NCBI RefSeq assembly: GCF_000410515.1
Contig: NC_021500.1
Location: 434,001 to 498,000, forward strand
DNA length: 64,000 nucleotides
Source: Enterobacter sp. R4-368
GTDB taxonomy: Bacteria > Pseudomonadota > Gammaproteobacteria > Enterobacterales > Enterobacteriaceae
Direction of reading: 5' to 3'
Every line of letters begins with the position of its first letter. The first letter of the stretch is position 1. The position numbers and the translations under genes are program-made. Of the stretch, positions 21,914-31,683 are shown in pieces. The notes below the pieces were generated by a model, which was not told the DNA's origin, searched no databases, and worked only from the letters and a program-made list of their open reading frames with translations.

Positions 21914-22348
21914 TTAACGCAGCCAGGGCGTAATGGTCAGCCCGACCAGTACCCCTTCAGGCGCAAGCAGGCGCGTGACGCTCTGCCCCCAGGGTTCCAG
22001 ACGGTTAGCAACCAGCAGTTGATACCCTTTGTTGACCAACACATCGGTAGCGGTAGCCAAATCCTGCACTTCAAATTCAACCCAGCTTTGCGGAACGGGG
22101 TGGGAATCCGGCCACTTCTCTGCGCCAAAGCACGACGCGGCGGCGTGATGCAGCGGCCACAGGGCGAAGTGTTTTGCGCCGTCGAGCGCATCGTGGTCGG
22201 CGACGAGGTAATCGCTCGCGCCCTCCATCGGTTTCAACGGCAGCCCAAGGGTGTGCTGGTAAAACGCCTGGCTGTCGGCAACGTTTTGCGGGATGGGGCC
22301 GAAACCGGCGATAAACAGCACTTCAAGCCCGGGGATAGTGGGGATCAT
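21914..22348 (-). CDS. VOC-superfamily (glyoxalase/dioxygenase-fold) protein
   Basis: The 144-residue protein has the paired beta-alpha-beta-beta-beta modules of the vicinal-oxygen-chelate fold: VLFIAGFGPIPQNVADSQAFYQHTLGLPLKPM in the first half and SWVEFEVQDLATATDVLVNKGYQLLVANRLEPWGQSVTRLLAPEGVLVGL in pieces in the second. Such proteins include glyoxalases, bleomycin-resistance proteins and dioxygenases; no specific reaction can be inferred. ATG 22348 has GAGGT five bases before it; the upstream extension to 22402 would run into the adhP terminator. It is transcribed leftward after adhP but separated from it by that terminator. Confidence 0.78.
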   Translation of the reverse strand: MIPTIPGLEVLFIAGFGPIPQNVADSQAFYQHTLGLPLKPMEGASDYLVADHDALDGAKHFALWPLHHAAASCFGAEKWPDSHPVPQSWVEFEVQDLATATDVLVNKGYQLLVANRLEPWGQSVTRLLAPEGVLVGLTITPWLR

Positions 22349-22365
22349 AAACACCTCTGTGTCAG

Positions 22366-22390
22366 AAAAAAGGGGGCAGTCATGCCCCCC
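22366..22390 (-). terminator. Rho-independent terminator of adhP
   Basis: On the minus strand GGGGGCA pairs with TGCCCCC (22383-22389 with 22372-22378) around a 4-base loop, followed by a run of six T. It lies 23 bases beyond the adhP stop. Confidence 0.85.
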
Positions 22391-22412
22391 GATTATAGGC
22401 AATGCCCGGTGA

Positions 22413-23423
22413 TTAATGGCGGAGGTCGATCACCATACGACCACGGATCTGGCCCTGTTCCATCTCTTTAAAGATGGCGTTGATATCTTCCAGCGGGCGC
22501 AGCGCCACTTTCGGCACCACTTTGCCTTCTGCGGCGAACTGGAAGGCTTCGTGCAGATCCTGACGCGTTCCGACCAGCGAACCAACGACCTGAATGCCGT
22601 CCAGCACCAGGCGCGGAATATCGAGGCTCATTGCTTCTGGCGGCAGACCCACGGCCACCACGCGCCCACCGGCACGCACGGCATCAACAGCCGAGTTAAA
22701 GGCTGCTTTTGCCACCGCGGTAACTACGGCGGCATGTGCACCGCCGGTTTTTTCATGCACCACTGTTGCCGCATCTTCGCTGCGCGAGTTGATGGTGAGA
22801 TCCGCGCCCATGCTGGCAGCGAGTTTAAGCTGCTCATCATTTACATCGATGGCGATCACTTTGGCGTTAAACACATTTTTGGCGTATTGCAGCGCCAGGT
22901 TACCCAGCCCGCCGAGACCGTAGATAGCAATCCACTGGCCCGGTTTAATCTGCGAAACTTTCACCGCTTTATAGGTGGTCACGCCCGCGCAGGTGATGCT
23001 GCTGGCCGCGGCGGAGTCCAGACCGTCCGGCACTTTCACCGCATAATCCGCGACCACAATGCACTCTTCCGCCATGCCGCCATCGGCCGTGTAACCCGCG
23101 TTTACTACCTCACGGCACAAGGTTTCGTTGCCGCTGTTGCAATATTCGCAGTGGCCGCAGCCCTGAAAAAACCACGCCACAGAAGCGCGATCGCCCACTT
23201 TCAGCGAGGTCACGCCTTCGGCCACCTGGGTGACAATACCAATGCCTTCGTGTCCGAGGATCACACCGGTTTTGTCGCCGAAATCCCCGTTTTTCACGTG
23301 CAAGTCCGTATGGCAAACGCCACAGCACTCCATTTTCAGTAACGCTTCGCCATGTTTCAGCGGGCGTAATGTTTTTTGAGTCACTTCAACCTGATGATCT
23401 TTTGTAACAACAGCAGCCTTCAT
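22413..23423 (-). CDS. adhP: Ethanol-preferring zinc alcohol dehydrogenase
   Basis: AdhP interconverts primary alcohols and aldehydes with NAD in the cytosol. The 336-residue protein equals E. coli AdhP in length and nearly in sequence. Catalytic zinc ligands are in [10 protein letters not shown] and GHEGIG with the later Cys of [12 protein letters not shown]; structural zinc is bound by [15 protein letters not shown]; the Rossmann motif is [20 protein letters not shown] 23423 ([15 protein letters not shown]) follows GGAGAAACACC; the frame to 23447 is an extension. It is the expected backbone neighbour of fdnGHI and maeA. Confidence 0.96.
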
Positions 23424-23698
23424 GGTGTTTCTCCTGTGATGAGGCATGGAACTGAGATCCGGGTGTGGCGTATGGCTTCATCCGTAATATACGTCTTTAG
23501 AATTAATGGTTTAGGAGGGACATTCAAGAGCAGGGCAACATGCTGTAATACTTTCAGCGCCTTTCCCCTGGTTTAGGTAGGGTAAATAATCAGTAACCAC
23601 TCTGTTGATAAGGTTATAGAGTTCGCAGCATCAATGTCATGCTACTGTCATCAATTGTCGCCAAATTGTTGCTTTCTATAACAAAAGAGTGATTAACA

Positions 23699-24301
23699 AT
23701 GCATCTGGTGAAAAAACTGCTGGCCGTCAGCATTCTCTTATCCGCCTCGGTTCAGGCACACAATATTCTTGCGTTTCCGCAGCCGGAAAATAACCCGGAA
23801 GAGTTCTACGCGGTAACGGAAATCCCGGCGGGCGGCATTATTAAGTATGAAACGGACGCCGAAACCGGCTTTATCGAGGCTGATCGCTTTCAGTCAATGC
23901 CGGTGGCTTACCCGGCGAACTACGGCTCGCTCACCCAGTCGCTGGCGGGGGATGGCGATCCGCTGGATGTGATTTTCTACACCCGCGCGCCGCTGGCACC
24001 GGGAACGCTGATTAAGCTGCGCCCGATTGGCGTGCTGAAAATGATTGATGGCGGCGAAACGGACGACAAAATTGTTGCCGTACCGGCCAGCAAAATCGAC
24101 CCGACCTATGACGACATTAAAAACATCACCGATTTGCCTAAAATCGAGCAGCAACGGCTGGAAGCGTTCTTCCGCGTTTACAAACAGTTGCCGGACGGAC
24201 GTAAAAAAGTGGAGCTGAACGGTTTTAACGACGCGGCAACCGCAAAGCAGGAAATCAAACAGGCATGGGAGGCCTGGAAAGCGAAAAAACCGCAGCAGTA
24301 A
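23699..24301 (+). CDS. Inorganic pyrophosphatase, family I, with signal peptide
   Basis: The core of this 200-residue protein is a family-I soluble inorganic pyrophosphatase, hydrolysing PPi to two phosphates with magnesium. Active-site landmarks are IIKYETDAETGFIEADRF (lysine, glutamate, arginine), YPANYG, the signature DGDPLDVIF, DGGETDDKIVAV and YKQLPDGRK. Unlike the essential cytosolic Ppa it begins MHLVKKLLAVSILLSASVQA, a clear Sec signal peptide with a likely cleavage after residue 20, so a periplasmic location is inferred. It is a solitary gene divergent from adhP, preceded by ACAAAAGAGTGATTAAC. A second, cytosolic ppa is presumably elsewhere in the genome. Confidence 0.9.
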   Translation: MHLVKKLLAVSILLSASVQAHNILAFPQPENNPEEFYAVTEIPAGGIIKYETDAETGFIEADRFQSMPVAYPANYGSLTQSLAGDGDPLDVIFYTRAPLAPGTLIKLRPIGVLKMIDGGETDDKIVAVPASKIDPTYDDIKNITDLPKIEQQRLEAFFRVYKQLPDGRKKVELNGFNDAATAKQEIKQAWEAWKAKKPQQ

Positions 24302-24472
24302 GAAACCACCTGCATGCCACTGGCATGGGTTACGCTTTTGAGTGACGTCCTCACTAAAAAGTCTCTGCCGGTTCTGCACGATGTCGATCCGAAGACACGC
24401 AGGGTGTCTCCTCCGGGCGAAAAGAATTAACCAGCACCTGTTGCTGACCCGCAGCACAGGCTGATGTTAAAA
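24302..24472 (+). other. Non-coding stretch after the pyrophosphatase gene with several small hairpins
   Basis: No supported ORF. Visible elements are CATGCC-ACT-GGCATG (24313-24327), a GTGA/TCAC pair near 24341-24354, and GACAC/GTGTC around 24394-24408. A 33-base segment (24391-24423) is nearly identical to part of the GT2 coding region. It could be the 3' UTR of the pyrophosphatase mRNA or encode a small RNA; neither is shown. Confidence 0.4.
24391..24423 (+). repeat. Short near-identical block shared with the GT2 gene (copy 1, intergenic)
   Basis: This segment matches 30634-30666 at 30 of 33 positions, with 27 of the last 28 identical (24396-24423 against 30639-30666). Both copies are in the same strand orientation. 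By chance such a match is not expected within 64 kb. The intergenic copy contains the palindrome GACAC-GCAGG-GTGTC. Confidence 0.7.
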
Positions 24473-24498
24473 AACAGGCGCCGTAAGGCGCCTGTTTG
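24470..24498 (-). terminator. Terminator of the ABC-F gene
   Basis: AAACAGGCGCC (24473-24483) pairs perfectly with GGCGCCTGTTT (24488-24498) around GTAA. On the minus strand it is followed by a T-run and lies eight bases beyond the ABC-F stop. It may also slow plus-strand transcripts from the pyrophosphatase gene. Confidence 0.85.
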
Positions 24499-24506
24499 TT
24501 GTGGTA

Positions 24507-26213
24507 CTACAACCTCTGTTGAAGGCGGGCAATCTCCTCGCGCCACTGCGCCTGAAGCTGCGGTTTCTGGTGCTTCGCTTTACGCGCCAGGTCTTCTGCC
24601 AGTTGGGTTTCAAGCTTAATTAACCGCTCCAGAAGGGCATCAATATCCTCTGGCTCAGCGGCGACGCTAAGCGCCTCCGGCGCTGACTGCTCGTGGCGGA
24701 CACTTTCGCGCAGGCGTTCAAACACCGCCTCAGCATCATGCCATTCGCTCAGCTCACCGTTTTCCACCAGCCAGAAGCGGTTACAGCTACTGCTGATAAG
24801 CGCTCTGTCGTGGCTGACCAGCAACACACCGCCGCTGAACTGTTGCAGCGTTTGCGCCAGCGCCTCTTTGCCTGCCATATCCAGATGGTTGGTTGGCTCA
24901 TCCAGCATCAGCAGGTTAAAGCGCGCCAGCGACAGACCGACAAACAGCAACCTGGAGCGCTCACCGCCGCTGAGTGTCGCCACGCGTTGCCCGTGACGCG
25001 CCCAGGCAAAACCGGCGCTGATGAGCGCCATTTTGCGATCCTGTGGCGTGGGGGCAAACGGCCCTAGCGCGTCAAACAGCGTGGCGTCATCCGGCAACTG
25101 ATGCAGCGTCTGGTCGTAGTAACCGGCGTTCAGCCGGGGATGCAGACGCAACCCGGATGCGCTTTCCTGCTGGTAAGCCCGCCAGATAAGACGCAGCAGC
25201 GAGGATTTCCCGCAGCCGTTACGCCCGACAATGGCGACCCGATCGCCGCTTTTCAGCCGCGCAACCGGCACCCGAAACAAGTCCGGTAATCCGGGCGCAG
25301 GCGGAACAGCGAGCTGTTCCATCTCCAGCAGACGGTCCGCCCTGAGTTCCTCGCCATGCAGCGCCAGCCGCCACTGGCTGCCCTCGGTCAGTTCGGTCTG
25401 GTTCTCTTTCAGGCGTTCAACCTGGCGCTCCATCTGTTTCGCTTTGCGCGCCAGATCTTCGTTGTCATAGACGCGCCCCCAGGTGGCCAGCCGTTTGGCG
25501 CTGGCGGTAACGCGGTCGATCTCCTTTTGCTCCGCTTTGTGACGCAGGGCATCGCTCTCATCCCGCGCTTCCAGCGCCTGCCGCGCCGCGCTACAGGGGA
25601 GCGCGAAGCTGTGCAGCGTATGGTCACGCAGGATCCAGCTGCCATTGGTCACCGCATCCAGTAACGCCGCGTCGTGCGACACCATCACGAAACTGCCGGA
25701 CCAGCTTCGCAGAAACTGTTCCAGCCACAGCAATGTGGGCAGATCGAGGTGGTTGCCCGGCTCATCCAGGAGCAGCAGATCCGGTTCGCGGATAAGCGCC
25801 CGCGCCAGCAGCAAGCGGGTATGTTGCCCACCGCTCAGCGTGGCGGCCGTTAAGGCGATTTCCTGCGGACTCAGCCCCATGCTGGCCAGTAATGCTTCGC
25901 CGCGCCAGCGCTGGCTGTCGCGCTCCGTCGACGGGAGCTGCGCCAGTACCGCATCAAGCAGCGTCATCGATAACAGGGCATCGGGCAGATGTTGCTCAAC
26001 GCGCGCCAGCAGGCACTGGTTTGCCACCGTCACGTTGCCGGAAAGCGGCGACAGCGAACCGTCCAGCACTTTTAGCAGCGTACTTTTGCCGCAGCCATTG
26101 TCGCCAATTAGCCCGAGGCGATCGCCTTTTTTCAGGGTGAAGGAGAGATCGGAAAATAACGGACCAAACGCCGTTTCAACACGGATGGATTGTGCAGATA
26201 GTAATGTGCTCAT
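24507..26213 (-). CDS. ABC-F family ATPase (ribosome-associated or antibiotic-resistance type)
   Basis: The 568-residue protein has two ATP-binding domains in one chain and no membrane segments, the mark of ABC-F translation factors. Walker A motifs are GDNGCGKST and GRNGCGKSS; signatures LSGGQ and LSGGE; Walker B/H regions LLLLDEPGNHLD and LLMLDEPTNHLD, the first with Gly in place of the usual Thr. Between them lies a charged linker (GRVYDNEDLARKAKQMERQVERLKENQTE) of the kind that reaches into the ribosomal E/P site, and a coiled C-terminal tail follows. Members either tune translation (EttA, YheS) or protect ribosomes from antibiotics (Msr, Vga, Lsa). A leader ORF and alternative stem-loops precede it. 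The ATG at 26213 has only TTGAG as ribosome site. Confidence 0.85.
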   Translation of the reverse strand: MSTLLSAQSIRVETAFGPLFSDLSFTLKKGDRLGLIGDNGCGKSTLLKVLDGSLSPLSGNVTVANQCLLARVEQHLPDALLSMTLLDAVLAQLPSTERDSQRWRGEALLASMGLSPQEIALTAATLSGGQHTRLLLARALIREPDLLLLDEPGNHLDLPTLLWLEQFLRSWSGSFVMVSHDAALLDAVTNGSWILRDHTLHSFALPCSAARQALEARDESDALRHKAEQKEIDRVTASAKRLATWGRVYDNEDLARKAKQMERQVERLKENQTELTEGSQWRLALHGEELRADRLLEMEQLAVPPAPGLPDLFRVPVARLKSGDRVAIVGRNGCGKSSLLRLIWRAYQQESASGLRLHPRLNAGYYDQTLHQLPDDATLFDALGPFAPTPQDRKMALISAGFAWARHGQRVATLSGGERSRLLFVGLSLARFNLLMLDEPTNHLDMAGKEALAQTLQQFSGGVLLVSHDRALISSSCNRFWLVENGELSEWHDAEAVFERLRESVRHEQSAPEALSVAAEPEDIDALLERLIKLETQLAEDLARKAKHQKPQLQAQWREEIARLQQRL

Positions 26214-26303
26214 TGCTTACTCAAGAGTTACAGGCACGAGCGTGCCTCGTCAAACATCGCTGACGATAACCTGGTAAGCCCAAGGGAAGGGATTGTTGTC
26301 TTC

Positions 26304-26348
26304 GCTCAAGCCGAAGTTATCGCAGCACGAAACCGATAACGCTTGAGC
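26304..26348 (-). promoter_or_regulatory. Stem-loop over the end of the leader ORF, candidate attenuator
   Basis: On the minus-strand transcript GCTCAAGC plus GTTATCG (26348-26334) pair with CGATAAC (26322-26316) and GCTTGAGC (26311-26304), interrupted only by a TTCG bulge. The stem contains the last ten or so codons and the stop of the leader ORF, so a ribosome there must open it. The same CTCAAG (26347-26342) can alternatively pair with CTTGAG at 26225-26220, the ribosome site of the ABC-F gene. Confidence 0.6.
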
Positions 26349-26400
26349 TGGCGCGATCGCCAAAGGCATGTGAATAGTCAAACAATTCACAATACAGCAT
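26317..26400 (-). CDS. 27-codon leader peptide upstream of the ABC-F gene
   Basis: A perfect AAGGAGG ribosome site lies six bases before ATG 26400 and drives a 27-codon frame that begins MLYCELFDYSHAFGD and ends SSVIGFVLR before TAA at 26319-26317. The ribosome site is stronger than that of the ABC-F gene 103 bases downstream. Its 3' end is folded into a long stem-loop (26304-26348). Leader peptides of this kind precede erm, msr and vga genes, where drug-stalled ribosomes on the leader expose the downstream start. This leader is not recognised, so the inducing signal is unknown; the assignment rests on the ribosome site, position and RNA structure. Confidence 0.65.
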   Translation of the reverse strand: MLYCELFDYSHAFGDRASSSVIGFVLR

Positions 26401-26480
26401 AAGTAGCCTCCTTTTTTATATTCAGTAAGTTAATGGGTGAAAAGGAGTTTAGCGGGGAAATGAATGTTTTACCAGCAGGG

Positions 26481-26508
26481 AAAAACCCGGCGCACTGCGG
26501 CGCCGGGT
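26481..26508 (-). terminator. Rho-independent terminator of maeA
   Basis: On the minus strand ACCCGGCGC pairs with GCGCCGGGT (26500-26508 with 26485-26493), 6-base loop, followed by five T. It starts eight bases beyond the maeA stop and separates maeA from the ABC-F leader. Confidence 0.88.
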
Positions 26509-26515
26509 GCGGAGA

Positions 26516-28219
26516 TTAAATAGAAGTACGGCGGTAGCTGCGGTACTTCGGCTCCCAGAAGTTTTCGTCAATGGATTGCTTCAGCGCTTCGGCCGAGGTT
26601 TTTGCCGCCAGGCCTTGTTGTTGCGCCATTTTGCCAACGGCAAAGGCTATGGCGCGCGAAACTTGCTGAATGTCCTTCAGCTCCGGCAGCACCAACCCTT
26701 CGCCATTAAGCAGCAGCGGGGAGTATTCCGCCAGCGTTTCGCTTGCCGCCATCAGCATTTCATCCGTAATGCGTGACGCGCCGCTGGAAATAACCCCCAG
26801 ACCGATGCCCGGGAAGATGTAGGCGTTGTTGCACTGGGCAATCGGGTAGGTTTTCTCTTTCCACTGCACGGGCGAGAACGGGCTGCCGGTGGCAACCAGC
26901 GCCATCCCATCCGTCCAGCTAATGATATCCTGCGGCGTTGCTTCCACGCGCGAGGTCGGGTTCGACAGCGGCATGATAATCGGTCGCGGGCAGTGTTTGT
27001 GCATTTCACGGATGATCTCTTCCGTGAACAACCCGGTCTGACCAGAAACACCGATCAGAATATCCGGTTTCACGTTACGCACCACATCCAGCAGGGAAAG
27101 GGCTTCATTTTGCGCGCCGGTGTCCCAGTTTTGCAGGTTTTCGCGTTTTTGTACCAGCTTACTCTGGAACGGCAGCAAATTCGGCATTTCGTCCGTCAGC
27201 AGGCCGAAACGGTCAACCATATAGACCTTCTGACGGGCGTCCGCTTCGCTCAACCCTTCACGCTGAGTCTGCGCAATGATTTGTTCCGCAATACCGCAAC
27301 CGGCGGAACCCGCGCCAAGGAAGACGATTTTCTGCTGGCTGAGCTGGCTGCCCGCCGCGCGGCTGGCGGCGATCAGCGTCCCGACAGTGACTGCCGCCGT
27401 GCCCTGGATGTCATCGTTAAAGCAGCAGATTTCATCGCGATAACGGTTCAGCAGCGGCATGGCATTTTTCTGCGCGAAGTCTTCAAATTGCAACAGCGCG
27501 TCCGGCCAGCGCTGTTTCACCGCCTGAATAAATTCATCCACAAAAGCGTAGTAATCATCGCCAGTGATACGCGGATGACGCGAGCCCATATATAGCGGAT
27601 CGTTAATCAACTGCTGGTTGTTGGTGCCAACATCCAGCACGACGGGCAGGGTGTAAGCCGGGCTGATACCGCCGCAGGAGGTGTAAAGCGACAGCTTACC
27701 AATCGGAATACCCATGCCGCCGATGCCCTGGTCGCCAAGACCGAGGATGCGTTCCCCGTCGGTCACCACGATCACTTTGATGTTGTGGTTCGGCACGTTT
27801 TGCAGGATGTCGTCCATGCTGGCGCGGTTCTGCCAGGAGATGAACACCCCGCGTGCGCGGCGGTAAATATCAGAGAAACGCTCGCATGCCCAGCCGACGG
27901 TTGGGGTATAGATCACCGGCATCATCTCTTCGAGATGATTTTCGACCAGCCGATAGAAGAGGGTTTCATTGGTGTCCTGAATATTGCGCAGATAGATGTG
28001 CTTATCGATGTCGGTTTTAAAGCCCTGATACTGCAACCAGGCGCGTTCGGCTTGTTCTTCAATGGTTTCAACCACTTCTGGCAGCAGGCCAAGCAGGTTG
28101 AAGTTGCTGCGCTCTTCCATGCTGAAGGCGCTGCCTTTGTTCAGCAACGGAAACTCCAGCAACACGGGTCCAGCGTAAGGGATATATAACGATCGGTTTT
28201 TATTATGCTTTGCATTCAT
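26516..28219 (-). CDS. maeA: NAD-dependent malic enzyme
   Basis: MaeA (SfcA) decarboxylates malate to pyruvate with NAD in the cytosol, linking the TCA cycle to gluconeogenesis and pyruvate supply. The 567-residue protein matches E. coli MaeA (565) throughout: [21 protein letters not shown] at the start, [18 protein letters not shown] with the active-site tyrosine, [18 protein letters not shown] and [19 protein letters not shown] around the metal site, and [13 protein letters not shown] as NAD motif. The 5' leader contains CCCGTG/CACGGG (28245-28265) and TTGATCAA. It lies between sra and the ABC-F gene, all leftward; adhP and sra are its usual neighbours in enterics. Confidence 0.97.
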
Positions 28220-28369
28220 CTTACAGCTCCTTGATCAACTTTCTCCCGTGGGGGTGAGTCACGGGCAGGTACAGCGGCGGGCGCAAGTATAAAGCATCGC
28301 TTCAGCAAATACTTCCCGATCGCGGTATTCGTTGATTGAATTTTTAGCAATAACAAGGAGAGGGAAGAT

Positions 28370-28396
28370 AAAACACCACCCCGGACGGGGTGGTGA
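28370..28396 (-). terminator. Terminator of sra
   Basis: CACCACCCCG (28374-28383) pairs with CGGGGTGGTG (28386-28395); on the minus strand it is followed by TTTTAT. It begins about 12 bases beyond the sra stop. Confidence 0.82.
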
Positions 28397-28407
28397 GGGT
28401 GGACAAA

Positions 28408-28545
28408 TCAGCCTGCGCGGCGATGACGCCCGGAACGGTGAGTGACCACCGTCTCTTCCTGGTTGTCTTTCGTGACAACTTTGCGGGTGTTCGACACTTT
28501 GTAATCCAGCCCCATAAGATGACGTGCCTGACGGTTCGATTTCAT
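28408..28545 (-). CDS. sra: Stationary-phase ribosome-associated protein Sra (S22)
   Basis: The 45-residue basic protein reads MKSNRQARHLMGLDYKVSNT and ends in an Arg-rich tail (RSGRHRRAG). E. coli Sra (RpsV) is also 45 residues and begins MKSNRQARHILGLDYKISN; it binds the 30S subunit in stationary phase. ATG 28545 is preceded by AAGGAG with six bases between. It is the last gene of the recognisable enteric backbone in this part; in E. coli bdm and osmC would follow, whereas here an AT-rich gap and a glycosyltransferase operon begin. Confidence 0.93.
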   Translation of the reverse strand: MKSNRQARHLMGLDYKVSNTRKVVTKDNQEETVVTHRSGRHRRAG

Positions 28546-29027
28546 GCTTACTCCTTAATCCAGTTCAATGTTTCAAGGACAAGCCCGGTGACTGACCGGG
28601 CGAAATTCAATCTCATCATTGCGCGGTACAAAAAACATACCGAACTGTTATCCTCGGACATCCCGGTATAAAGTGCAATAAGAAAAGTTACCTTTAGGTT
28701 TTATCGCGATAAATAATAAAGCCTCTCTAACAGATTAAATTCCTGCACACTATAGGGTTTGCGAGTAAAAATTCCGAATGGCCTCAATTAAAGTAGAATA
28801 TTCTTGAGTTTAAACGCCTTCACAAAGTTGCTTAATGGTTACAATAATTAAATTGATATATTACGGATGAAACATCATTTCGCTTTTTTGTGTGACGAAA
28901 AGTAAAAAAATGACATTATCTTCAACATTGCGATGCCAACCACTTTAAACCCAGGCCGTAATATGCTTTTCTTAGCATCAATGGAATAATTAAAAAAATA
29001 TCTTCGCAATGAGAAAGAGGTAATTCC
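28546..29027. other. AT-rich intergenic region before the glycosyltransferase operon
   Basis: About 480 bases without a supported gene. From roughly 28660 on it is markedly richer in A and T than the flanking backbone, with runs such as TAATAATTAAATTGATATATTA. It must contain the promoters of sra (leftward) and of the operon starting at 29028; I could not settle on a -35/-10 pair. Such composition is typical of H-NS-bound, horizontally gained DNA. Confidence 0.6.
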
Positions 29028-30386
29028 ATGGACGTTAGAAATGGAGTAATTTTTATTTCTTTTGATGCTGTTGCTTTTTCAGGAATTACTGTTGAAGCAT
29101 TCAAAACAGCACAAGAGTTAGTGCACAAGGGAATTAAGCCTTATCTTGATCTTGGTTACGACATCAAGATTGATAAAGGCAAATTCAATAAGCCATATGA
29201 ATGGGAGAATGCTATATATAAAGATGGATTTACGCTTGTACGAATAAATGACATTACCAGCCTACCTGACTACAACCCCGGTTTTATCGAGTACTCGCAT
29301 AATGTATTGATTAGCCAGAAAATAACCGTTTCATCAGCGGAACGTGAAAGAATTCTTTCTGTGATTGATAAAACAGCATGCCAACTGGCAAAAAAAATCG
29401 TGCTGCAATGGGAGCAACTCAATATCGGTACGGTTTATGTTGAAAACGGCACGCTTCCGGAAAATATTATTTATACAAAAGCTCTATATATTGCAATAGA
29501 TGTATATGGGAAGCGATATGATTTAGAGAAATTCGTCACCTGGCGCGACCATGATTTAATGTGGAACAGCGAAAAAACGGTGATGAAATATGGTGCTTAT
29601 CCATACCCATATGCCATCAAACCCATAAAATCCCCTTATATCAACTACGTTACGCTTAATGAGGATTTGAAAGCAAAACTTGAAGAATGGTGTAACTATG
29701 CTGTTGAAGTTAAAGTTAAAAAGAACGCTTACAACTTTAGCGAGGCGCGAAGTCATAGTGATATGCGGCGCAGCCTTGGTATAGGTTGTAATGATATATT
29801 GATTGCCCGAACCACGCGCCTCATCCCACAAAAACGGCTTGACCGGGATATTTACCTGGTATCAAAACTCAACCAGCTATTTCAACAACACGGTCGCGAG
29901 GGGCACGTATTTCTTGTTATCGCAGGCGATCCCCATGAGGCGCCAGAGTGTTATCAATCGCTGGTTGATTTAGCAAGGACATTACAGGTTGAACCGTTTA
30001 TACACTTTATTGGTTGGCTGCAGCACGGTTACATGCCTCCGGGCATGAACACCTACACCATTGAAGATTTATATTACTCGTGTGATGTCGTCTCTTTTCT
30101 GACGTCATGGGATTACGACAGTTATGGAAATCCAATTGGTGAAGCGATTAGTCACCGGCGTTGTTACATTTCGACACGTTACGAATATTATGACGAAGTT
30201 TATGGGCAATATGGTTTCTTTGCGCCAGTCATGGATATTTCTGCCGAGAAAGATGATTTACCTGACGATGAGTTTATTCTCAATGTTTATAAACTCATCA
30301 CTAACAAACCGTTAATGTCAGAAATGGCTTATCAAAATTTTCTTATTGGTAAGAAAATACTTAACAGTAAGAGCATTGAGTCTTAA
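29028..30386 (+). CDS. Glycosyltransferase, GT4-like (GT-B fold)
   Basis: The 452-residue protein looks like a retaining glycosyltransferase. An N-terminal half begins VIFISFDAVAFSGITVEAFKTAQELVHKG. The C-terminal half carries GT4-type elements: ILIARTTRLIPQKRLDRDIYLVSKL, VFLVIAGDPHEAPECYQSLV, HFIGWLQ, and SYGNPIGEAISHR with the acidic residue that contacts the sugar nucleotide. There is no signal peptide or membrane segment, so it is cytosolic. AAGAGG precedes the ATG by about eight bases. Codon use is AT-rich compared with all neighbours, pointing to transfer. It starts a six-gene operon; the GT2 gene begins 22 bases after it. The acceptor is unknown. Confidence 0.75.
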   Translation: MDVRNGVIFISFDAVAFSGITVEAFKTAQELVHKGIKPYLDLGYDIKIDKGKFNKPYEWENAIYKDGFTLVRINDITSLPDYNPGFIEYSHNVLISQKITVSSAERERILSVIDKTACQLAKKIVLQWEQLNIGTVYVENGTLPENIIYTKALYIAIDVYGKRYDLEKFVTWRDHDLMWNSEKTVMKYGAYPYPYAIKPIKSPYINYVTLNEDLKAKLEEWCNYAVEVKVKKNAYNFSEARSHSDMRRSLGIGCNDILIARTTRLIPQKRLDRDIYLVSKLNQLFQQHGREGHVFLVIAGDPHEAPECYQSLVDLARTLQVEPFIHFIGWLQHGYMPPGMNTYTIEDLYYSCDVVSFLTSWDYDSYGNPIGEAISHRRCYISTRYEYYDEVYGQYGFFAPVMDISAEKDDLPDDEFILNVYKLITNKPLMSEMAYQNFLIGKKILNSKSIES

Positions 30387-30408
30387 TTAATACTCAGGGA
30401 GAGTATAT

Positions 30409-31683
30409 ATGCGTAACAATGTTTATGTTTCGATTGTCTTACCCGTTTATAACGAGAGCGACAGAATTAATTCTGTGCTTGTCTCGTTACTTCATCAAAG
30501 AACGCGTAATAATATGCTGACACATGATAACTGGGAGCTGATCGTGGTGGATAATAATTCCACCGACGATTCAGTAGCGCAAATAGAGGATTTTCATCGG
30601 CTCAATCCGGCAATGGATATTCATATCATCAAGGAAACCACGCAGGGTGTCTCCTCCGCGCGAAAATGCGGAATGGACTACGCCTCGCTGCGTTCAAAAG
30701 CGCGTGATAAACGCCTTGGCATAAACCGTAAGCACTATATCGTTTCGGCCGATGCGGACTGTACCGTGGACAGCTGGTGGCTGCACACGCTAATTGAAAA
30801 AATGGTCGAGGAAGCAGGGGATTTAGGCACCTGTAATTACTACTACAACGAAAACGACTTCCGGCTGCGCCCGAACCTGTTTGCGGAGATCCAGAAAACG
30901 CTGCGCTGCCGCGATGTCTCCTTCTCGCTGTTTGGCGGCTTCCCGGATGGCAAAGGTTTTGCCGTTGAACGTACGATGTACGACAAAGTCGGCGGCATTG
31001 AGATCTTTTACCAGCTCAATAACGGCCGGTTTGTCGAGCACCTTTCCGATGACTGGGATTTCGGTATTCGCGTGATCGCCGCGGGCGGAAAACCTGTCTA
31101 CGCACGCGATTCCCATGTTGAAATCAACAGCCGCCGCGTGGACACCATTCTGCAGGAAGTGATAACCGGTGTCGCTTATGGACAGGATGGCATCATCATC
31201 ATGAAAGATGTCCGTCCGGAAGGGGGACAGCAAACCTCGCTGAGCGACACGACACCAGAACAGTCATTACAGGCCTGGCACTACTCCATAAAAGATTACG
31301 TGCCGAAAAACATTGTGCTGCCGGTGCTTCTCAACCCGCACCTGCTGTTAGACAGCGACGCCGTGCGTCACTTCTTCGGTCCGGTGGTAGCCGATCGCCT
31401 GTTCCGGCGCATCGAGGCCATCAAACACGAAACTCGCATTATCGATTTCACGCCCATCCACGCCTATAAAACGCCCGCTTACCGGCTCTATTTCGAATTT
31501 CGCGACGAGATTTTCAGCGCCATGCGCCGCGCGATGGGCGAAGACATTGGTTTCCCGCCGCCGCTGCCAGCCTGTTTTGACGAGGTTCAGGAGCGCGATT
31601 TCCAGCGTTTCGTCTGGTATTTCTGTGAAGATCGCGAGTCCGGCATGGCGCATAACTACTTTGCCAACGGGGGAGTCTTCTGA
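30409..31683 (+). CDS. Glycosyltransferase family 2
   Basis: The 424-residue cytosolic protein has a GT-A fold N-terminus: SIVLPVYNES (residues 8-17), ELIVVDNNSTDDS (43-55), ETTQGVSSARK (76-86), and the DxD metal/nucleotide motif DAD (115-117) in YIVSADADCTVDSWW. The acceptor-side motif LSDDWDFGIRVIAAGGK follows. The last 150 residues have no family feature I recognise. GAGAG precedes the ATG, and the stop overlaps the radical-SAM start. Base composition changes from AT-rich at its beginning to ordinary further on. It carries the second copy of a 33-base block found after the pyrophosphatase gene. With the GT4 gene it probably builds or decorates a glycosylated small molecule. Confidence 0.8.
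   Translation: MRNNVYVSIVLPVYNESDRINSVLVSLLHQRTRNNMLTHDNWELIVVDNNSTDDSVAQIEDFHRLNPAMDIHIIKETTQGVSSARKCGMDYASLRSKARDKRLGINRKHYIVSADADCTVDSWWLHTLIEKMVEEAGDLGTCNYYYNENDFRLRPNLFAEIQKTLRCRDVSFSLFGGFPDGKGFAVERTMYDKVGGIEIFYQLNNGRFVEHLSDDWDFGIRVIAAGGKPVYARDSHVEINSRRVDTILQEVITGVAYGQDGIIIMKDVRPEGGQQTSLSDTTPEQSLQAWHYSIKDYVPKNIVLPVLLNPHLLLDSDAVRHFFGPVVADRLFRRIEAIKHETRIIDFTPIHAYKTPAYRLYFEFRDEIFSAMRRAMGEDIGFPPPLPACFDEVQERDFQRFVWYFCEDRESGMAHNYFANGGVF
30634..30666 (+). repeat. Short near-identical block shared with 24391-24423 (copy 2, coding)
   Basis: This copy encodes ETTQGVSSARK of the GT2 domain. Read in the same frame the intergenic copy gives EDTQGVSSGRK, so both nucleotide and peptide are similar, but similarity ends abruptly on each side. 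Confidence 0.7.

Follow-up and report, generated by a model that had tools for sequence, protein, structure and literature searches.

The window analysed here is a 64,000-nucleotide stretch of Enterobacter sp. R4-368 (family Enterobacteriaceae), spanning positions 434,001 to 498,000 of contig NC_021500.1. On its minus strand it carries a gene for an ABC-F ATPase preceded by a 27-codon leader open reading frame (ORF). The ABC-F gene starts at window position 26213 and has merely CTTGAG (26225-26220) as its ribosome site. In our computations the end of the leader takes part in mutually exclusive RNA folds, one of which hides this site, weakly so for arm 1 in some clades. The features of the unit are as follows.

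24507-26213, minus strand: ABC-F ATPase gene, 568 amino acids, below the NCBIfam cut-offs for EttA, Uup, YheS and YbiT and fitting the distribution of PAF1.
26317-26400, minus strand: leader ORF, 27 codons, MLYCELFDYSHAFGDRASSSVIGFVLR-stop, with ATG at 26400 and the stop ending at 26317, read from the sequence.
26407-26413, minus strand: leader ribosome-binding site AAGGAGG, read from the sequence.
26347-26373, minus strand: leader codons 10-18, S-H/R/L-x-F/L-G/S-D/N-R-x-S/C, under amino-acid-level selection by the synonymous-change test.
26334-26348, minus strand: arm 1, at the end of the leader ORF, whose partner is either arm 2 or the ABC-F ribosome site.
26300-26322, minus strand: arm 2, holding the leader stop codon, pairing with arm 1 or arm 3.
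26264-26289, minus strand: arm 3, CTTCCCTTGGGCTTACCAGGTTATCG, pairing with arm 2 or, through GCTTAC (26279-26274), with GTAAGC (26220-26215).
26233-26246, minus strand: GGCACG/CGTGCC hairpin upstream of the ABC-F ribosome site, containing the top covarying pair.
26215-26230, minus strand: ABC-F ribosome-site region, TAACTCTTGAGTAAGC, complementary to arm 1 and, via GTAAGC, to arm 3.

An initial annotation, made from the sequence alone, had placed here the leader with its strong site ahead of an ABC-F gene with a weak one, a 15-bp stem at the leader's end (26348-26334 with 26322-26304, bulge TTCG), an alternative pairing of CTCAAG (26347-26342) with CTTGAG, and a GGCAC/GTGCC hairpin just upstream (26246-26233). 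All of these were recovered, and the alternative pairing proved longer than claimed, joining CTCAAGcGTTA (26347-26337) to TAACtCTTGAG (26230-26220) in ten pairs with one mismatch. The annotation did not include the third arm, a rival of arm 1 for pairing with arm 2 (the 3' half of the stem). Folding of 26190-26420 gave z = -2.35, with 3 of 200 shuffles folding equally well.

The ABC-F gene was detected at E <= 1e-130 in 114 of 392 genomes of the family, representing 39 of 154 genera. Homologs with at least 56% identity occur in 112 family genomes, and the leader region was found in all 112, once frameshifted (L044). Leaders were located by DNA match in 109 of these and by inspection in three (G315, G357, G407), and the set includes two genomes with an in-frame TGA in the ABC-F gene (G066, G286) and three with partial ABC-F matches (G231, G235, G399). 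Two family genomes with a 42-43% identical ABC-F relative lacked a leader of this kind within 350 bases upstream, and one genome (G372) has leader DNA with no ABC-F match at the threshold. Within an order-level set of 394 genomes, 26 outside the family carry the gene at E <= 1e-140, all of them with a leader, which has 28 codons in fourteen, 26 in eleven and 25 in one. A conserved upstream ORF (uORF) with a strong ribosome site precedes the ABC-F gene in every one of the 138 genomes carrying a close homolog (112 + 26), one of them with the frameshift. Leaders were also found in named records of Vibrio THAF64, Vibrio campbellii, Photobacterium GJ3 and Aeromonas caviae. As judged from sequence, enteric, Vibrio and Aeromonas bacteria all have examples of the arrangement, so the initial view of an enteric ABC-F leader stands for enterics and fails as a restriction to them. 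No match to leader DNA or gene DNA was found in 20,395 E. coli records. In a plasmid collection, the leader was present in all six records inspected of the 40 with ABC-F; separately, the unit was observed on the 50.6-kb Morganella morganii plasmid record p48659_1 (L295), near ada, alkB and prp genes. Rhizobial ABC-F relatives (L130-L133, 34-37% identical) are preceded by a leader ORF of another kind, also equipped with a strong ribosome site; it lies some 290-170 bases ahead of the ABC-F start, ends ..xLQxxLQG-stop inside a palindromic hairpin, and is apparently a second, unrelated type of ABC-F leader.

The leader is exactly 27 codons long in 119 of the 122 loci collected first, which include two repeat fetches (L117 = L017, L118 = L016), and in 55 of 56 later loci, many of them from genomes already among the first. 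Of 178 enteric loci, 174 contain a 27-codon ORF that begins with ATG and has a GGAG site, and two others have 28 codons; leaders of 28 codons were recorded in L067 and L072, and the frameshifted leader of L044 has 35. At most 20 bases from the start, GGAG occurs in 174/174 enteric loci with 27-codon leaders and AGGAGG in 170/174, GGAG or AGGA having been one criterion for accepting a leader. The first alignment comprised 112 distinct rows (L044, L067, L072 and L105 omitted) and the second 143 distinct rows of 172 (the same four and L018 omitted). Leader peptides had no family match in NCBIfam (three peptides) or Pfam (two peptides). Near the start of the leader (26391-26368, codons 4-11), most enteric rows can form a TGTGAA/TTCACA hairpin, with a mean pairing of 0.81 in the folding model, and in L115 the two complementary blocks shift register together, by eye. 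A CRP site, suggested by TGTGA/TCACA, was rejected on its spacing of 13 instead of the consensus 6.

Covariation was assessed on the 143 rows against a null in which the observed substitutions were re-dropped on the tree (about 20,500 column pairs). The best column pair lies in the GGCAY:RTGCC hairpin (A-T 97, G-C 45, T-C 1 of 143; E = 0.01). The second-best, in the arm 1:arm 2 stem (A-T 90, G-C 51, G-T 2 of 143; single-pair p = 3e-5), is significant among predicted pairs only, because E = 0.68 over all pairs, and column pair 78-203 of arm 1 with the ribosome site reached p = 0.013, uncorrected. The CGATAAC block of arm 2 is nearly invariant (0.57 changes per column, leader columns 24-72 having 9.0) and is matched per position by arm 3 in 106-112 of 112 rows, compared with 70-111 for upper arm 1. 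In a swap test on 19 chosen representatives, the statistics of which ignore kinship, own partners were on average better than foreign ones for arm 1 with the ribosome site (p = 0.0008), arm 1 with arm 2 (p = 0.0002) and arm 2 with arm 3 (p = 0.0002). As for the controls, arm 2 with the ribosome site showed no own-partner advantage (p = 0.59) and arm 1 with arm 3 a marginal one (p = 0.07). All three pairings are preserved, in changed letters, at the Aeromonas-type locus L326 (-19.7, -20.7 and -21.2 kcal/mol), where own partners rank 1, 1 and 2 of 19, and in Vibrio-type RSRV loci the arm 2:arm 3 pairing is rebuilt and the arm 1:ribosome-site pairing lengthened, by eye. The three mutually exclusive pairings persist through letter changes, the first of them weakly in some clades, and the competition of the leader's end between the stem and the ABC-F ribosome site, as initially annotated, is retained in different families, with compensating changes. 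Locus L285 lacks a 27-codon leader; its arms 1 and 2 have changed letters yet are still complementary, by eye.

We then modeled, over the 112 rows, how much energy opening of the ABC-F ribosome site takes when a ribosome covers one leader codon after another. A ribosome on codons 1-12 shifts the mean opening energy by -0.45 to +0.28 kcal/mol, and on codons 14-24 the mean falls by 1.9-2.9 kcal/mol, the drop exceeding 1 kcal/mol in 94 of 112 rows at codon 19 and again in 94 at codon 20. At termination, when the P site holds codon 27, the mean rises by 1.15 kcal/mol, 50 rows rising and 10 falling by more than 1. The inducing position initially proposed, a stall at the stop codon, is accordingly not the one that the model favors: opening is predicted at codons 14-24, and termination closes the site on average. 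When the spacer was shuffled (56 rows, 168 shuffles, 7 codons), the mean opening at codon 20 shrank to -1.06, against -2.95 with the unshuffled spacer, and the shift at codon 27 went from +1.09 to -0.15. Mean pairing in the free RNA is 0.61 for arm 1 with the ribosome site, 0.64 for arm 2 with arm 3, 0.34 for arm 1 with arm 2 (lower part) and 0.22 for arm 3 with the ribosome site; with the P site on codon 20, arm 2:arm 3 is the sole remaining competing pairing (0.94 and 0.86 for its two helices), and on codon 22 these helices drop to 0.34 and 0.69. Pairing of arm 3 with GTAAGC, considered as the main OFF pairing, was kept as a secondary one because the model favors arm 1 with the ribosome site (0.61 against 0.22). 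Among 28 loci of other families, opening reaches 3.5 in nine Vibrio-type RSRV, 6.4 in two SSF and 4.7 in three FW loci, and 13 Aeromonas-type loci open irregularly, to -3.9. The effect of termination is +1.2 in RSRV, 0.0 in SSF, +1.3 in FW, +0.4 in Aeromonas-type loci and +1.9 in f6 L327.

Synonymous-change tests on the larger set revealed amino-acid-level constraint within the leader. Over codons 2-18, frame 0 shows 163 synonymous changes of 461 (0.354 vs 0.284 ± 0.019), and over codons 10-18 it shows 82 of 204 (0.402 vs 0.300 ± 0.032), in both cases with 0 of 300 null runs as high; frames 1 and 2 have no synonymous excess in the codons where frame 0 shows one. On the larger tree, 2 stop changes were reconstructed in codons 2-18 against 13.1 expected, in rows chosen for an open ORF. 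Codons 19-27 have a synonymous deficit in frame 0 (0.191 vs 0.327), as expected because the RNA arm dominates there. Aeromonas-type leaders show an independent excess over codons 2-19 (11/22, p = 0.006). The constrained segment, S-[HLR]-x-[FL]-[GS]-[DN]-R-x-[SC], runs into the codons at which the model predicts that stalling would open the gene. The final codons of the leader, I-V/A-L-R-stop (26331-26317), whose conservation the initial annotation had suggested examining, are nearly invariant from Kosakonia to Aeromonas, beyond what the proposed pairings explain. A +1-frame peptide overlapping the leader, suggested by the most variable first codon positions, was ruled out by stops in 33 of 112 rows. 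A likeness of HFFGNR to the SpeFL arrest peptide was set aside, a literature search on SpeFL having listed no paper that contains the motif.

Along the window's minus strand lie, in this order, sra (28545-28408; name presumed), maeA, a terminator-like hairpin, the 27-codon ORF and the ABC-F gene. The features upstream of the leader are the following.

28219-26516, minus strand: oxaloacetate-decarboxylating malate dehydrogenase gene by NCBIfam match, which we take to be maeA.
26485-26508, minus strand: intrinsic-terminator-like hairpin after maeA, from the terminator scan of 26180-26560, separating maeA from the leader unit.
26446-26451, minus strand: -10-like element TAAACT, putative own promoter of the leader.

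The unit appears to have its own promoter. Hexamers resembling TAAACT (TACACT, TACAAT, TATAAT) are similarly placed in many of 24 loci inspected by eye; a consensus scan of 26180-26560 gave no sigma-70-type site, and the promoter status of TAAACT is therefore conjectural. The scan of the same interval for intrinsic terminators found maeA's only. The initial annotation had left the choice between translation and transcription attenuation open; since the sole terminator is maeA's, with none between leader and ABC-F gene in the window, translation attenuation is favored over transcription attenuation by an intrinsic terminator, which was rejected. Rfam gave no match reaching the gathering score in 22000-31000. 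Of the 108 loci seen with wider flanks, 66 have maeA near the unit, certain genomes being counted twice. On the other side, an inorganic pyrophosphatase gene with a signal-like N-terminus (window 23699-24301) adjoins the ABC-F gene; a pyrophosphatase gene is also close to the ABC-F gene in one Klebsiella record.

The ABC-F protein scored under the NCBIfam cut-off for each of the best 25 of 191 matched families, including Uup (314.5/900), PRK15064 (233/762), PRK10636 (213.1/917), EttA (207.1/599) and the ribosomal protection-like family NF000355 (318.5/380); we take PRK15064 to be YbiT and PRK10636 to be YheS. Its closest solved relatives by sequence are YheS, ARB1, ExpZ and Uup. Judged by named proteins of 97-98% identity, the host belongs to the sacchari group of Kosakonia. 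Named relatives occur in Enterobacter cloacae, Citrobacter, Klebsiella (including Klebsiella pneumoniae), Pantoea, Rahnella and Ewingella, and in Proteus, Morganella, Vibrio, Photobacterium and Aeromonas, with the gene also present in plant- and soil-associated bacteria. These data bear on the PAF1 subfamily of Murina and colleagues. PAF1 is placed in Vibrio, Enterobacter, Klebsiella, Serratia and Citrobacter but not Escherichia, and is a resistance factor predicted from phylogeny and patchy distribution (PMC6723617). The present gene matches this distribution in Vibrio, Enterobacter, Klebsiella and Citrobacter by named records and in its absence from E. coli, Serratia not having been sought by name; its fit to PAF1 is one of distribution.

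The conservation, the exclusive folds, the dependence on ribosome position and the local peptide constraint are computed observations, and we infer from them that the leader is probably a ribosome-position sensor, controlling the ABC-F gene by translation attenuation through an elongation stall that is most plausibly drug-induced. The leader would be translated from its strong ribosome site. Without a ribosome, or after run-through and termination, arm 1 would pair with the ABC-F ribosome site and arms 2 and 3 with each other, keeping the gene OFF; an alternative OFF fold would join arm 1 to arm 2 and arm 3 to the ribosome site. A ribosome stalled with its P site at about codons 14-24 would cover arm 1, letting arm 2 pair with arm 3 and exposing the ABC-F ribosome site. 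A compound that targets the ribosome, acting together with the nascent peptide of codons 10-18, would be the probable cause of the stall, which the ABC-F protein would probably relieve in turn, shutting off its own gene again.

Several results weigh against this interpretation. Over the whole leader, the first set gave no synonymous excess (160 of 552 changes, 0.290 vs 0.293 ± 0.017), so that the codon-level constraint which the initial annotation had named as a check was absent there and emerged, as a clear excess, only at codons 10-18 of the second set. In the larger set, codons 2-9 show no synonymous excess in frame 0 and codons 19-27 a weak one in frame 1 (21/300 null runs as high), and the nine Vibrio-type leaders fall short of significance (13/42, p = 0.14). 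The openness of frame 0 in the aligned rows is partly a selection effect, since the alignments excluded rows that lack a 27-codon ORF, and a mid-ORF stall leaves the near-invariant I-V/A-L-R-stop unexplained. The folding model omits kinetics, Rho and cotranscriptional folding; part of the opening at codon 20 (-1.06) outlasts spacer shuffling, the Aeromonas-type profile stands at +0.4 and -0.3 at the positions seven and eleven codons from the end, and L327 opens weakly, to -1.9. To the covariation values of both arm 1 pairings and the neglect of kinship in the swap test, given above, must be added that arm 1 ranks its own ribosome site first in merely 2 of 19 representatives and at least 14th in six (L093, L102, L106, L108, L094, L327). 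These uneven ranks indicate that the pairing differs in strength among representatives, and those six would have to use arm 3 to hide the ribosome site. Yet the arm 3:GTAAGC pairing is missing from Vibrio-type RSRV loci, by eye, and elsewhere is out of covariation's reach because it is almost invariant.

Drug sensing is, in our analysis, the likeliest cause of the predicted stall, because known leader-controlled ABC-F genes respond in this way and PAF1 is a predicted resistance factor. Its main specific rival is an autogenous loop without a drug, in which the leader would stall by itself and the ABC-F protein relieve it, so that the cell gauges its own ABC-F supply. We regard such a loop as rather unlikely. 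Reports of EttA acting on the leader peptide MgtL (PMC11282234) and of ectopic MsrD suppressing induction via its own leader (PMC10314930) speak for it, and the peptide constraint just ahead of the predicted stall zone fits an intrinsic arrest motif; however, no known arrest motif was recognized in the leader, and the patchy presence of the gene across genera resembles the sign of a resistance factor as outlined in PMC6723617. It is somewhat less doubtful, though still unlikely, that the leader is a general translation-stress sensor like toiL, opened by any ribosome slowing, the peptide hardly mattering. The wide opening window, some eleven codons, and the lack of frame-0 synonymous excess in codons 2-9 and 19-27 agree with this, but the amino-acid-level constraint on codons 10-18, restricted to frame 0 and paralleled in the Aeromonas-type leader, does not.

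Control might alternatively act through Rho, with leader translation shielding the RNA and the structures only modulating Rho loading in the ABC-F transcript. The drug-sensing uORF of E. coli topAI, which layers ribosome-site occlusion and then Rho termination in the account of PMC12121999, offers a precedent; the pairings found here aim at the ribosome site, and we give this explanation a low probability. Very improbable, finally, is an incidental ORF on an RNA that is in truth a trans-acting or metabolite-binding element. Conservation mainly at the RNA level in codons 19-27, the complementary arms of L285 in spite of its missing 27-codon leader, and the frameshift of L044 would suit it, but they stand against the 174 of 178 enteric loci with ORF, ATG and GGAG (and two more with 28 codons), the dearth of stop changes noted above for rows selected as open, and the lack of an Rfam match at gathering score.

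The closest designs are toiL and the Gram-positive ABC-F uORFs. As here, a short ORF precedes the ABC-F genes vmlR, cplR, lsaA, vga(A) and msrD, and a stall refolds the RNA (PMC9226507, PMC10201436, PMC10314930, PMC12121999). The uORF consensus given there for CplR, VmlR, VmlR2 and LsaA spans 3-4 residues, compared with 25-28 codons here, and vmlR, cplR and msrD have terminators, whereas none of the unit's own was found in 26180-26560 and a mid-ORF stall zone is predicted instead. The msrD leader travels on mobile elements reaching some Gram-negatives (PMC10314930), and the present lineage extends across Gammaproteobacterial families. In E. coli toiL-topAI, as here, the uORF pairs with the downstream ribosome site and a ribosome on the uORF opens it; toiL, however, has eight codons, belongs to a toxin-antitoxin operon and opens with a stall anywhere (PMC12121999). 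Unlike toiL, the leader described here has a third arm, a defined window that excludes codons 1-12, and average closing at termination. E. coli MgtL/EttA shares an ABC-F protein acting on a leader peptide, which for our system is conjecture, but controls mgtA and not an ABC-F gene (PMC11282234). Terms for uORF, leader or attenuation are absent from the main text of PMC6723617, the only paper found in a literature search on PAF1 with ABCF. Literature searches in an open-access collection that takes in few subscription papers and no preprints, judged by titles and abstract openings, listed no earlier account of a leader on this ABC-F gene.

It is possible, although we propose it only tentatively, that these leaders form an undescribed family of arrest peptides of 25-28 residues with an [H/R/Y]-x-F-G-like core, spread over several Gammaproteobacterial families, in which a specific ligand, a drug or a cell compound, would stall the ribosome mid-ORF, termination would be an active OFF state, and the ABC-F protein would clear the stall and close its own gene. 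A predicted ribosome-sensing leader in all 138 genomes constitutes independent evidence that the ABC-F protein answers ribosome trouble. The leader could also serve as a ready reporter, as a compound that induces it would point to what the ABC-F protein handles. If the proposed mechanism is true, native Gammaproteobacterial ABC-F genes would gain leader control of a design unlike the known ones.

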